From the IMG/VR virus record IMGVR_UViG_3300042879_001241, positions 1 through 26,074 of that record: a DNA stretch of 26,074 nucleotides. The stretch is one strand, 5' to 3'. The notes under the pieces are model-generated. The model searched no databases. It saw nothing but the letters and a program-made list of their open reading frames with translations, and had not been told where the DNA came from. Every line of letters begins with the position of its first letter. Within the stretch, counting starts at the first letter, position 1. Source of the DNA: a virus. Positions 2 through 21,159 of the stretch are shown here, piece by piece. Position numbers and translations under genes: made by a program.

Positions 2-3000
2 ACATTAAGTTCAACGGATGATCTTCAAATTTATTATGAAAGAGAGGAAGTTAATTTTGCTCCTGTAGATAGTTTATTAGATCCCGTAAGTAAGTTTAGA
101 GTTAGTGAACCAGAATCGCTAATTGATACCGACTTTGAATATTCGATTCAACAAACAAAGTGGGAAACTGTAAAATTAACCAATAATATTCCAACCAGTT
201 TTTCACTTGCTGCTACAACAAACGATCCTGTTGTCGTAGCAACTGCAAGTGTGGATGCTAATTCAGATATAGTTAACGTTGTAACTGCGGAAGATCATGG
301 ATTAGTTGCAGGATCTGTTGTAGAAACTACAGGATTTACAGATCCATCTTATGAAGGAACTTTTGTTGTTACTAAAGTTAATACAAATAGAGATTTTAAC
401 TATAAGGTCAGATTTAAATCTTCTTCTAAAAAAGAACTTTCTACAATCTATAGTTTAGTATATCCTGGAGCGTTTTATACTGGATCTGGAATTAATATTC
501 TAGACATCACAACCAATGCTGCAGTTGCCTCAACTTTAACGGTAACTTTTCCAGCAAATCACGGATTTCCAGATAATACAAAATTATATCTTAAAAAATC
601 TAGAGCAACAAGACTTTTTAAAATAAACAGTCCAACGGATGTTAGAGTTGGAGCATCTACGATGCCTTCTCCAACTGGAACTGCACAAACAACACAATAC
701 TCACTAATCAATTCAGCAACCACTACTAACGATAATCGTTATTATGCTCAAAGACCGATTGTAATTGATGATTGGATCGGTAGACATGAAATTAATATTC
801 CTGGAACGTCAGTCAATACGACAAATGGTGTAATTACATATACATCGACAGATCAAATTGGAGTTGCTGCAGGTACAACTGTAGTTGCGAATGATGCTAT
901 TGTTTTCTACACTCCAATTGGTAATACGCTACCTGGAGGAATTACCTCATTTAGGGGATATTATGTATTCCAAACAACGGCAGCAACGGACCCAGTTTCT
1001 GGAGTTACTACAAGCACTCTCAGATTTTCTGATTCTTGGGGAAGCACTACTCCAGTAACTCCAACAAGTACTGGTAATACTTTATATGGAAATCATAGAA
1101 TTCTTGTTGGAAAACGAGTAGCAAGTATTGCTTCTAATGATAGGATTACATTTTCAACTCCACACGGATTCTCTGTAAACCAGAGGTTAATCGCAATTTC
1201 TTCTGGAACATTTAGTAATGTTGCTAAAACTACGAATAATCACATAACATACACTTATTATTATGTAAGACAAATTATAAGTGATACCGTTATTACAGTA
1301 AGTACCACTTCTGGTGGAACTCAGGCAAATATAAATTCATCTTCTTCAACGTTTACACCAGCAGCCAATAATATCTGTATTTTTGCTGCTGTTGATTTGT
1401 GTCCAATCGCAAATGGTTTCTATCTTCCACCTCAAGCAGGATTCTCAACAGTTTCTTGGACAACTGGATCATACTTACTGTATAGAGCGTCTGGTGGTGT
1501 AGGTTATAACCAACTAGGAATAACCACAAATACCAGATATCTTGTAAGAGAAATCAACAATAATCCAAACTGGTATAATCTTTGCTTAAATACAAATACT
1601 GCTATCAATACGCCAATTAATATTACGTTTACTCAAACTAATGCTGGTAATATCTACAATGGTATTCATACATTCACAACAACTTATCCAATTCCAGATG
1701 CATCTAGCATTGAAATTTTAGATCCTCCCAGAGCTGGATATGGAAACAATGAATTAGTTCAGTATTCACCAGATGTTGGAATTTCTACAATTGGTAACTT
1801 AGTAGGAAACTCTCTTTATAGAGTGAAGGTAAATGATAGTACAATGGTTATTCAACCAGGAATTTCAACCGTTGCTACTAAATTTAGACTTTCTGAAACA
1901 TCAAGTGAAACTAAGGTTTATGGAGTCAGTTATACCAAAAACTCAAACTTTATGGACATTTATGTTGCTAATACTGCCGTAGTTGGGTATGGAATTAGTG
2001 TTGGTAAAATGATTCAAGTATCTGGAGTAAATGATACGTTATATAACAATAATCTAATTAATGGATTGCATTATGTAACTGGAATTTCTACTGCGACTTC
2101 GGGAACATGGGCAAATAGACCAAGAATCCGAGTTTTATTCCCACTAAACAACTATAAAAATCAATTCAATAACTTTTCAATCGCTGCGAATGCTACATCT
2201 CTTCAAAATAGTTCAGTTACTGGAATTGTTTCATTCTCAAATGCTGGTGGAATTGGAACTCATAGATTTACATTAGCAAATGATGGTGCTGCAGACGATA
2301 TTTACCTAATTGGTAACTCAATTGGAACATCATTTACTCTATCATCTAATGTAGAAATTCCAGAAGTTGTTAAGACAATTCAAGGTGGTGATGGTCAAAT
2401 TGTTGGTATTAGCAGCAATTGGATTAGATTAACAAGCCATAACTATGCAGATGGGACACAAGTTTCATATGCAACAACACAAACCACTATTGGTGGACTA
2501 ACGAATGGATCTACTTATTATGTTAGAGTTCTAGACAGAAACTTTATTGGACTTGCTACCGAACAAACCGTTGCGTTAGATAGGAATAACGACGAATCTG
2601 GATTGATTGTCTTTAGTGGAGCAGGATCAAGTGTACCGCATTCATTTGTATCAAACAGTGTTAAAGGATTTATTACTGGACCTGGATCAATTGGATTTAG
2701 TACAACATCAACATTAATTACTGGAACTTCAACCAAATTCTTAACTGACTTCTCTATTGGTGACCTGTTTAGAGTATATACGCTTACAGCAGGAAATACT
2801 GGACCAGGATCTTACTTTGAATCTAGAATTGTTAAAGTTAATAGCAACACTGCATTGAGAATTTTAGAGATTCCAAGATACAACGCAGGTTCTGGATCAG
2901 CAAATTATTTTGTTCCAACAAGATTATACCCCATTTCTGATGGTCGTATTGTACATAGACCATTTGATGGTGGAGTAAATCTATCTGCTGGACTTGTTCC

Positions 3001-7941: not shown

Positions 7942-8049
7942 ATGAGTTACTCAAATCTCGACAGACTGGTATTTGTGGGCAGTTTCATGCTGCTTATGAA
8001 CTGGGGGGTTCGTCTAACCAACGTGGTGCTTAATTATGCTTTTTCTTGA
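7942..8049 (+). CDS. Tiny predicted membrane protein (35 aa)
   Basis: A 35-codon frame starts at ATG 7942, 22 bases after the cassette -10 box, with GAGAGG just upstream. The product has one hydrophobic stretch (about residues 9-20, LVFVGSFMLLMN) and a positive residue on each side, so it may be a single-pass inner-membrane peptide. It overlaps the next gene by 14 bases in another frame. I do not recognise it. The start position relative to the promoter fits the other cassettes, which is the main support. Confidence 0.5.
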   Translation: MSYSNLDRLVFVGSFMLLMNWGVRLTNVVLNYAFS

Positions 8050-8455
8050 ACATTCTGGATACGGTTACAGCAAGAATCGCTGTGAAGATGTTGTTTATTG
8101 GTTCATTGAGAAGTATCTTCCTCGGCATAAAATCGATCTAGTTATCAATCATCGTGGTCTCAGACGAGAATTTGTAGATGGTTGGGCAAACATCGAAGGA
8201 TCTGCATCTCGTCCTCGTGAATTTTTTATCGAACTTCAAAGTAATCTATCAGTTCACGATTATATCACGACTCTTCTTCATGAGTTGTGGCATGTTCATC
8301 AATGGGTAAAAGGTGATCTTCGTGAGAGGAGAACCAAGCGTATTTGGCGTGGTAGAGATCACACCAACGATGAGTATAAAGATCAACCCTGGGAAATTGA
8401 TGCTCGGTGGATGGAAAACGTCTTGTATCAAGAATACTTGACGGACACCCATTAA
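8036..8455 (+). CDS. HExxH zinc metalloprotease-like protein
   Basis: The 139-residue protein contains LHELWHVHQ, in which H82, E83 and H86 form the HExxH zinc site. PWEIDA follows at 118-123, where E120 is well placed to be the third ligand of a gluzincin (H, H, E), as in SprT-like, ImmA-like and minigluzincin proteins. There is no signal peptide or membrane segment, so it probably acts in the host cytoplasm. The substrate is unknown; proteolysis of a host or phage regulator is inference. It overlaps the small membrane gene upstream and precedes a nuclease-like gene with its own promoter. The annotation as peptidase is moderately secure; family placement needs a profile search. Confidence 0.7.
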   Translation: MLFLEHSGYGYSKNRCEDVVYWFIEKYLPRHKIDLVINHRGLRREFVDGWANIEGSASRPREFFIELQSNLSVHDYITTLLHELWHVHQWVKGDLRERRTKRIWRGRDHTNDEYKDQPWEIDARWMENVLYQEYLTDTH

Positions 8456-15638: not shown

Positions 15639-16151
<513 letters not shown>

Positions 16152-16152
<1 letters not shown>

Positions 16153-18771: not shown

Positions 18772-19071
18772 ATGGCGACTTGGAGAGCAAAATGTTGGTT
18801 AGGTTCTTCCTCTGGTTATCAAGATCTGGAGGTACAATCTAACACTGCATATGGTGCAAAGGAGCAGTTTCAGCGTATATATGGCGCTGAACAAATTATC
18901 AACCTCCATGAGGTAAGAGATTCTTCTGTCGGTTCTGCAATTAGTTCTGGCGGAAGTATTGCTTTAGTTGCGTTTTTATTTGTCGTTTGGTTAATTATTG
19001 AATACTGGTATTTTGTTATTCCAGGTGCTATAATCTTAGGATTGCTCTATTGGTATGGTCGTAATGCCTGA
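18772..19071 (+). CDS. Predicted membrane protein (99 aa)
   Basis: GAGGTGA (18759-18765) lies six bases before ATG 18772. Residues 1-55 are soluble (WRAKCWLGSSSGYQDLEVQS), then two hydrophobic segments, about 57-74 and 78-95 (SIALVAFLFVVWLIIEY and YFVIPGAIILGLLYWYG). The short loop suggests a helical hairpin with the N-terminal domain in the cytoplasm. Its end overlaps the methyltransferase start by 17 bases. Function unknown. Confidence 0.7.
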   Translation: MATWRAKCWLGSSSGYQDLEVQSNTAYGAKEQFQRIYGAEQIINLHEVRDSSVGSAISSGGSIALVAFLFVVWLIIEYWYFVIPGAIILGLLYWYGRNA

Positions 19072-20041
19072 TATTCAAATTCTTCAGAAACCTGTAGAAC
19101 AACTAAATACCATCGATCAAACTTTCGATTTGGTATATCTTGATCCTCCCTTTGGATTGCAAAGAGATTTTACCATGCAGGAGGAAAATGGCGAAGAAAA
19201 GGGATTTAGTGATCATTGGGATTCATTTGACGATTATATCGACTGGTATTCTTCTGTTCTGGATTCATGCTTTGAGAAACTGAATAAGGATGGGTGGATG
19301 TATTCCCACAATAATTTCATTGGAAATGCATTGGTTCTCTCAAAAGTCAGCGATAAACTGAGGAACAGTTTTTATACAAACATCAGTTGGAAACGATGTG
19401 GTCCAAAGAATAATATCAAGAACGGTTGGGGTAATATTGTAGATAGTATTGTTGTTTTCCAAAAGGGAAAACCATATTTTGAGGTAGAATATGGACCTTT
19501 GGATCCAGTTTACGAGGCAAACTCCTTTAAAAATAAGGATGAGGTTGGATACTATGCGCTTGCAAAGGTAACTGGAGAAAAGAGTCGCCCTTGTGCCCGA
19601 TATGAGTACAAAGGATACAATCCCCAGTATGGGTTTCGTATAACAAGGGAAAAACTTGAAATTCTGGACCAGCAGGGTCTACTGCACTACGGCAGCAACA
19701 ACATTTACAAAAAAATCTATTCTCATGAGTCCAAGGGTGTCCCAGTACAAAATTTGTGGGATGATGTATATTTTATCAGCAGAAGTGAGCAGAATAAGCG
19801 TAAATATCCCACTCAAAAACCACTAAAACTGTTAGAACGTATCATAAAGTCGTCTTGTCCCCCTGGTGGATGGGTGCTTGACCCCTTCTGTGGATCTGGA
19901 ACCACCGCAATATCTGCTTTTGGTCTGGGTAGGAATTGTATCACGATGGATGTGAATCCAGACGCAATTCGCATCGCTCAAGAGTCAGTTGATGAACTGG
20001 CACATGGGCAGTCGAATCCCTTGGTGGATGCCCTATACTAA
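19055..20041 (+). CDS. Beta-class DNA methyltransferase (N6-adenine or N4-cytosine)
   Basis: Motif IV comes first as D-L-V-Y-L-D30-P-P-F, and motif I (DPFCGSGTT, residues ~276-284, the S-adenosylmethionine site) comes near the C-terminus, followed by NCITMDVNPD. A YPTQKPLKLLERII motif X-like segment precedes motif I. This order is the beta class. DPPF is found in both N6-adenine and N4-cytosine enzymes, so the target base is open. The 328-residue length is normal for a solitary methylase. No restriction gene is adjacent, so it likely protects phage DNA or alters regulation. Start may be ATG 19055 or ATG 19064. Its last codons form part of the next promoter. Confidence 0.9.
   Translation: MVVMPDIQILQKPVEQLNTIDQTFDLVYLDPPFGLQRDFTMQEENGEEKGFSDHWDSFDDYIDWYSSVLDSCFEKLNKDGWMYSHNNFIGNALVLSKVSDKLRNSFYTNISWKRCGPKNNIKNGWGNIVDSIVVFQKGKPYFEVEYGPLDPVYEANSFKNKDEVGYYALAKVTGEKSRPCARYEYKGYNPQYGFRITREKLEILDQQGLLHYGSNNIYKKIYSHESKGVPVQNLWDDVYFISRSEQNKRKYPTQKPLKLLERIIKSSCPPGGWVLDPFCGSGTTAISAFGLGRNCITMDVNPDAIRIAQESVDELAHGQSNPLVDALY
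19995..20039 (+). promoter_or_regulatory. Cassette promoter F, inside the methyltransferase gene end
   Basis: AACTGGCAC (19995-20003) precedes TATACT (20034-20039) by 30 bases; the next ATG (20065) is 26 bases after the box. The whole promoter is coding sequence, and its 3' half (from TGGATGCCC) is nearly identical to promoter I. No hairpin. Confidence 0.65.
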
Positions 20042-20474: not shown

Positions 20475-20639
20475 ATGCTTGAACTCCTTACTTCTGCACT
20501 TATTGCATCTTCCAATCAATCGGAAGAAATCAATAAGTTCTGTGCCTACGTTGTAGGTATTCCATACGCCAGTGATAATTTTACTGACGAAGAATGGAAT
20601 CGGTTTGTTTACTGTCGTGAAAACTTAAAAATGTTATGA
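20475..20639 (+). CDS. Hypothetical protein (54 aa)
   Basis: ATG 20475 follows the previous stop by two bases. The product starts MLELLTSALIASSNQSEEIN and has FTDEEWNRFVYCRENLKML. The C-terminal F-T-x-E-E-W helix resembles that of the 58-residue protein at 18078. Overlaps the next gene by ATGA. Confidence 0.6.
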   Translation: MLELLTSALIASSNQSEEINKFCAYVVGIPYASDNFTDEEWNRFVYCRENLKML

Positions 20640-20758
20640 TTACTACTATTATGGCTGCATTTGCCTTTGGTTATTGTGTAGCAGACATTATTCTTAACTA
20701 CGTCAATAATAAACGTTTGAATGAAGATCTTAAACAAATTATTGAGGCTGAAAAATGA
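20636..20758 (+). CDS. Small predicted membrane protein (40 aa)
   Basis: ATG 20636 overlaps the previous stop. Residues 3-22 (TTIMAAFAFGYCVADIIL) form a membrane helix, followed by a charged helix NNKRLNEDLKQIIEAEK. It overlaps the next gene by ATGA; both are membrane proteins with a charged helix, so they may act together. Confidence 0.6.
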   Translation: MITTIMAAFAFGYCVADIILNYVNNKRLNEDLKQIIEAEK

Positions 20759-21159
20759 AACCTGATCACACTCTTCGTAACGCTGGTATCATCGGTGTAT
20801 CTTTTCTTTTGTCGTTGATGATCATCAACGCTGTAGTTGGTCCTCTGTATAATGTATGGGCACAATCTTTGCAAGGTAAGGCAGAACTGCAAAAGGCAGA
20901 ATATACTCGCCAGGTTGCAGTTCTTGAGGCACAAGCAAAGAAAGATAGTGCTCAACAACTTGCCGATGCTGAAGTGATTCGCGCTCAAGGTGTTGCTAAG
21001 GCGAACCAAATCATTGGTAATAGCCTGAAAGATAACCGTGAGTATCTTCAGTATCTGTATATCACGGGTCTGGAAGATGGTAGCAAGAATGGTAACGTAA
21101 CCATCTATGTTCCTACCGAAGGTGGTATGCCTGTGCCCACTCTACAGATGAACAAGTGA
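20755..21159 (+). CDS. Membrane protein resembling the C-terminal part of SPFH/prohibitin (band 7)
   Basis: One N-terminal membrane helix (about 10-31) is followed by a charged coiled coil with QVAVLEAQAKKDSAQQLADA and EVIRAQGVAKANQIIGNSL, then NREYLQYLYITGLED and VTIYVPTEGGMPVP. In prohibitin/HflC-like proteins the same order occurs: E-A-x-A rich coil, A-E-G-x-A-x-A, I-x-x-S-L, YL-x-[LY]-x-x-[IL]-x-x-L, then V-x-[VI]-[VY]-VP. The SPFH domain itself is missing, giving 134 residues instead of ~280. It may insert into host band 7 complexes, which in bacteria scaffold FtsH protease. This is inference from pattern. Confidence 0.65.
   Translation: MKPDHTLRNAGIIGVSFLLSLMIINAVVGPLYNVWAQSLQGKAELQKAEYTRQVAVLEAQAKKDSAQQLADAEVIRAQGVAKANQIIGNSLKDNREYLQYLYITGLEDGSKNGNVTIYVPTEGGMPVPTLQMNK

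Follow-up and report, generated by a model that had tools for sequence, protein, structure and literature searches.

Sequence evidence for a phage and bacterial protein family related to the C-terminal hat of SPFH proteins, with a possible role in membrane assembly

Described SPFH cages and the cyanophage gene

In a modelled 24-mer of stomatin the cap is made of CC1, CC2 and the C-terminus, and in human stomatin a C-terminal hydrophobic stretch is described as crucial for oligomerization (both in an excerpt of PMC10153343). For the complex of FtsH with HflK/C, an excerpt of PMC12048511 reports an assignment of about 110 C-terminal residues of 24 subunits to the hat, contacts of E. coli FtsH hexamers with the SPFH domains of HflK and, in the 'nautilus' form, an entryway close to SPFH domains that resisted modelling. 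Among phages, Band 7 ORFs are listed for RB43, 44RR2.8t and Aeh1 (in a part of PMC1524935), and the reason for phage SPFH-type proteins has been called unclear even for one that has the domain (in a section of PMC13239085). Our literature searches of open-licence PMC papers returned no report of a phage hat protein lacking the SPFH domain.

The window, that is the whole stretch of DNA analysed, is a virus record of 26,074 bases, and the hat gene that it carries (Table 1) lies on a cyanophage contig; of the 324 phage records that match its segment 18001-26000, 322 are named Synechococcus phage, cyanophage or Prochlorococcus phage. Elsewhere in the window lie genes for a 2Fe-2S ferredoxin (15862-16152) and for an N6/N4-type DNA methylase (19055-20041). 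The hat gene has a GAGG upstream of its ATG, and its product consists of a single membrane anchor, a helix rich in alanine, another helix and a strand at the C-terminus. The most hydrophobic stretch of 19 residues begins at residue 10 (mean Kyte-Doolittle 2.34), and the motifs AQGVAKA, YLQYLYITGL and VTIYVPTEGG are all present, so that the reading frame, anchor, coil and motifs are as the first-pass annotation of this DNA had described them. An anchor of the kind found in SPFH proteins (hydropathy of at least 1.6) was present in 253 of 257 family members. Behind it the window protein has 103 residues, and roughly residues 43-125 align with SPFH tails.

Table 1. Positions of the hat gene, its parts and associated features (numbering of the window, except for the last row, which gives loci)
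Feature	Position	Strand	Remarks
SPFH-hat protein gene, PHROG_11227 family	20755..21159	+	134 aa, ATG start
N-terminal membrane anchor, residues 1-31, exchangeable module	20755..20847	+	Hydropathy, comparison with S-SRM01 and S-SZBM1
YNVW exit motif and alanine-rich helix, residues 32-92	20848..21030	+	Alignment, AF2
Second helix and C-terminal strand(s), residues 93-134 (YLQYLYITGL ... TIYVPTEGGMP)	21031..21156	+	Alignment, AF2
Single-span membrane ORF, 40 aa, ATGA overlap with hat gene	20636..20758	+	ORF list
Hat loci preceded by nrdA, Novosphingobium/Sphingomonas-type	L148, L155, L160, L163, L167, L169-L174, L178		

The AlphaFold2 (AF2) monomer of the window protein (mean pLDDT 82.9, pTM 0.40) consists of one helix spanning residues 6-91, a second at 95-111 and strands at 115-119 and 127-131; the long continuous helix is its confident part, and confidence is low from about residue 111 to 134. 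Foldseek with this monomer gave no PDB or viral match at E <= 0.001 and no SPFH entry among the matches listed. The charge pattern prefers the coil outside in the cyanophage relatives (46 to 1 of 80, the others being ties) and the opposite orientation in the genome set (coil outside 8 to 55 of 80), and charge-based topology is thus inconsistent across the family.

Relationship to the C-terminal third of SPFH proteins

The window protein belongs to PHROG_11227, whose profile matches it at E 2.6e-49 (residues 12-133 to positions 13-132 of 138) and is matched by all 18 members of our alignment (the window protein and those of 17 named phages). PHROG_200, a full-length SPFH family, matches it at E 3.2e-11 over profile positions 263-360 of 379; that this profile includes the SPFH part is seen from the matches there of E. 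coli HflK, HflC and QmcA and of a sphingomonad prohibitin-like protein. Even tblastn with the window protein alone reaches halovirus proteins annotated as SPFH, one of which, the 290-residue protein of HRTV-10, is matched at residues 215-282 with 29 of 74 positions identical (39%). When the family was compared by hhalign with an alignment of seven full-length SPFH proteins, the probability was 98.0% over 80 columns in their C-terminal part, and a PDB search with a 128-member profile placed eight SPFH chains on top (E 1.2e-4 to 0.16), the first non-SPFH chain being ATP synthase b at E 2.2. The profile alignment spans residues 175-282 of QmcA and 168-228 of prohibitin. Homology to SPFH proteins thus extends over the C-terminal coiled coil, the second helix and the strand, and the earlier proposal that the parts are arranged as at the end of band 7 proteins is borne out by PHROG_200, HRTV-10, hhalign and the PDB structures alike.

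The relationship was also visible within a single bacterial family. A hat-profile scan of 119 Sphingomonadaceae genomes, drawn around one genome picked for having the hat gene, gave seven matches: three hat proteins (in the starting genome and 2 of the 118 others) with E below 1e-47, and four weak matches (E 2.5e-5 to 4.2e-4), every one of which is a full-length Band_7 protein. Composition shuffles were used to test the window protein against the last 190 residues of eight full-length SPFH proteins; it stood 16.8 SD above its shuffles for HRTV-10, 7.6 for HflC, 7.2 for QmcA and 1.7 for HflK. Among full-length matches a viral prohibitin-like protein was the best seen, followed by prohibitin and QmcA types, with HflC weaker and HflK not significant. 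The first-pass annotation had likened this end to that of HflC; the SPFH tail stands, but the closer relatives are of the other types.

Pfam returned no match for the window protein, Band_7_C included; the Band_7_C model gave sub-threshold matches in QmcA types, and the NCBIfam matches of family members were weak and mixed. Band_7 (PF01145) was absent at E <= 1 from the window protein and the 17 other aligned members (18 of 18), while the same search does detect it in full-length proteins, and the predicted absence of the SPFH domain is upheld. To judge from these comparisons, the protein is a hat-only derivative related to SPFH proteins and not a member of PF01145. Nor was a peptidase domain found in it (Pfam, E <= 1), and the label 'protease' carried by PHROG_11227 is without support from any domain match; it appears to derive from the 'membrane protease subunit' names of HflC and stomatin relatives, and the family assignment given here corrects a misleading entry in public phage annotation. 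In Salmonella phage SPN1S the hat gene, annotated as 'protease', begins at 2666 in the record, and the reading frame extends back without a stop to an ATG at 2483 (L086:2483-2860). Since this longer version includes an anchor, the start in the record probably lies too far downstream.

A hat-only family and its genomic surroundings

Relatives were collected in three ways, 80 being kept from each: a scan of viral contigs that used the window protein alone (346 relatives), a profile-based scan of viral contigs (at least 568) and a scan of one genome per species (136). The 80 viral loci of the profile scan and the 80 genome loci make up a diverse set of 160, of which 158 are readable from the anchor on, L177 being cut by a contig end and L183 having an interrupted frame. 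In 152 of the 160 the open frame before the start of the match is no longer than 60 residues, and in the other 8 the whole frame is free of a Band_7 match. Because this survey shows no SPFH domain, the stand-alone C-terminal piece is, as far as sequence comparison can tell, a widespread family of phages and some bacteria. The earlier view of a truncated protein is right in that the domain is missing, but this is not a loss in one phage, since no examined family member has it. Its phage members infect Proteobacteria, Cyanobacteria and Bacteroidetes, and others come from genome assemblies of bacteria and archaea, a part of which may contain prophages or contigs of viral origin. A tree interleaves viral and cellular rows, its starred branches forcing at least 5 to 6 changes.

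Eleven residues (G41, A72, E73, R76, A77, G79, A81, Y97, Y100, Y118 and P126) are invariant in all 128 aligned members. With a dN/dS of 0.085 among 43 distinct sequences including the window (903 pairs), the gene is under strong purifying selection; the value is a ratio of sums, taken over pairs whose dS lay between 0.05 and 3, and only members of 134 residues were used (60 before duplicates were removed). By part, the ratio fell from 0.164 in the anchor through 0.066 in the coil to 0.040 in the tail. The anchor and the core behave as separate modules that have been swapped between cyanophages (L002, L084), with the break near YNVW: the window protein shares 26 of 31 anchor residues and 48 of 103 core residues with S-SRM01, against 5 of 29 and 98 of 103 with S-SZBM1.

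The first-pass annotation had further coupled the hat gene to the preceding gene for a 40-residue membrane protein and linked it to photosystem D1 turnover. The ATGA overlap of the two genes is real, and a relative of the 40-residue protein is encoded by each of the three named Synechococcus phages that have the hat: in S-PM2 and S-SZBM1 it directly precedes the hat gene, and in S-SRM01 it is a weak match (E 6e-3, covering 75% of the query) some 0.8 kb upstream. Among the close relatives, however, only 5 of the 79 with upstream sequence have such a match ending no more than about 300 nt before the hat gene, and 7 of 80 have one anywhere in the locus, so that an obligate pair is rejected as a rule and the case for a partnership is weak. 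The D1 link fared worse: none of 80 close cyanophage relatives had psbA within about 4 kb of the hat gene, some flanks being shorter, and only S-SZBM1 has it nearby; as a rule this association too is rejected. A partner encoded by the phage was likewise not found, with FtsH protease domains in none of 8 cyanophage records and Band_7 in none of 11 hat-bearing phage records (five of these records may be fragments), although the positive control, S. elongatus, gave matches to both. A Band_7 gene was present in one of 25 further viral records, contig L281, where it encodes a head-only SPFH protein without a hat (1784-2350, minus strand, 188 aa, Band_7 E 2.4e-19) and lies about 5.6 kb from the hat-only gene on the same strand (7997-8401, minus). 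A general split into head and hat genes is unsupported, because on four other contigs with a head-only relative no hat gene is seen in the available DNA.

In the viral flanks, 113 of 148 ORFs were scanned, the remaining 35 being omitted by eye (mainly near-duplicates, minus-strand or doubtful ORFs). The recurring named families among the best 25 of 108 were RecT-like proteins, exonucleases and nucleotide kinases, with 3 to 5 members each. By mechanical ORF calling, a same-strand ORF lies within 60 nt upstream in 55 of 79 viral loci; in SPN1S, which we take to be a temperate phage, the hat gene is on the opposite strand to its terminase neighbours. Among the 80 genome loci, 12 from sphingomonads have nrdA before the hat gene (Table 1; nrdA recognized by a C-terminal motif), 4 of them also with nrdB downstream within the available DNA, and Pfam confirms one nrdA (L174) and one nrdB. 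This position after nrdA, sometimes before nrdB, suggests that the hat gene is a resident chromosomal one in these Novosphingobium/Sphingomonas-type relatives.

Possible functions and comparison with known systems

We tentatively propose, at somewhat less than even confidence, that the window gene encodes a membrane-anchored SPFH-cage hat that assembles with itself on the membrane. The protein would comprise the anchor, the final stretch of coiled-coil 1, all of it followed by coiled-coil 2 and the C-terminal strand, with no SPFH wall domain. During infection it would be inserted in the host inner (or thylakoid) membrane with its coil probably on the outer face, as the charge pattern of the cyanophage group suggests, and its hat surfaces would drive assembly into a small homo-oligomeric dome or ring that may cluster or shield a patch of membrane for the phage. 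Since the tail aligns with the hat region and the SPFH domain is missing, the part retained would be the assembling one and the part absent the one that contacts FtsH; it is because the retained part forms the cap or hat in SPFH cages that a self-assembling, membrane-tethered hat is favoured. It is also possible, though a shade more doubtful, that the free-standing hat of phages and some bacteria in general self-assembles as a minimal, wall-less membrane dome.

It might additionally enter host SPFH rings, the idea of the first-pass annotation, and such entry is, on its own, the chief rival explanation, albeit a rather unlikely one. A wall-less subunit joining a host cage of the stomatin/QmcA/prohibitin or HflK/C type would leave a gap and so alter FtsH access or membrane quality control. 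The hat surfaces are kept in the window protein, the excerpt of PMC12048511 places the entryway of the HflK/C shell near unmodelled SPFH domains, and S. elongatus has the Band_7 and FtsH matches that the phage records (0 of 11 and 0 of 8) do not. However, the contact with FtsH reported in that excerpt is made by the SPFH domain, which the window protein does not have, and nearly the same core occurs in phages of very different hosts. The tails are moreover most alike one another, with scores of at least 191 for three queries against 13 others and of at most 144 against eight full-length SPFH proteins, and those of enterobacterial phages are no closer to E. coli HflK, HflC or QmcA than are other tails, the cyanophage tail included. 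Within a comparison limited to E. coli, this argues against host-specific mimicry, and from these scores we favour self-assembly.

Considerably less probable is an envelope protein of superinfection exclusion or lysogenic conversion, whose coil and hat would bar other phages. A lipobox-like cysteine near the membrane exit in 69 of 257 members (by a loose regular expression, some matches of which fall within the hydrophobic stretch) and the cargo-like orientation of the SPN1S gene are in keeping with it, but the same expression matched none of 80 close cyanophage loci, the protein is known from large phages and cellular operons, and the close upstream ORFs and recurring recombination and nucleotide-kinase genes do not describe isolated cargo. 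More improbable again is a mere coiled-coil spacer or tether without hat assembly; the confident long helix would suit it, yet the strongest constraint lies on the C-terminal helix and strand and not on the coil, and Y97, Y100, Y118 and P126 are invariant. Chance or compositional likeness of an alanine-rich coil, such as gives weak matches to ATP synthase b and others, is rejected as exceedingly improbable by the shuffles, hhalign, the first places of eight SPFH chains in the PDB search and an alignment that runs on through the non-coil strand.

If the self-assembling hat is real, it would be a new class of membrane organizer in which the hat alone suffices for SPFH-type assembly, able to cap a phage-specific patch of membrane or, through wall-less subunits, to open host FtsH cages. 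The vague question of why phages carry SPFH-type proteins becomes, with a hat-only family, the testable one of what the hat does alone, in a small protein that occurs in phages infecting Synechococcus or relatives of E. coli.

With its own family, PHROG_11227 (138 positions), the window protein agrees in length and parts without difference. Phage SPFH proteins with the domain (PHROG_200; HRTV-10 gp055, 290 aa; Javan576_0036, 282 aa) have in common with the family the C-terminal coil and helix and, in HRTV-10, the strand, and their N-terminal anchor or lipoprotein signal resembles its anchor, but they have the SPFH domain (Band_7 model, 176 positions) that the family lacks. E. coli QmcA, HflC/HflK and the eukaryotic prohibitins, whose C-terminal third is profile-aligned to the family (weakly for HflC, not significantly for HflK), likewise keep that domain, and because of its absence the window protein would be without the FtsH-contacting surface described for HflK. 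The head-only phage SPFH protein (L281:1784-2350 and four relatives) is also half an SPFH protein, but the opposite half, with Band_7 present in its 188 residues and the hat absent.
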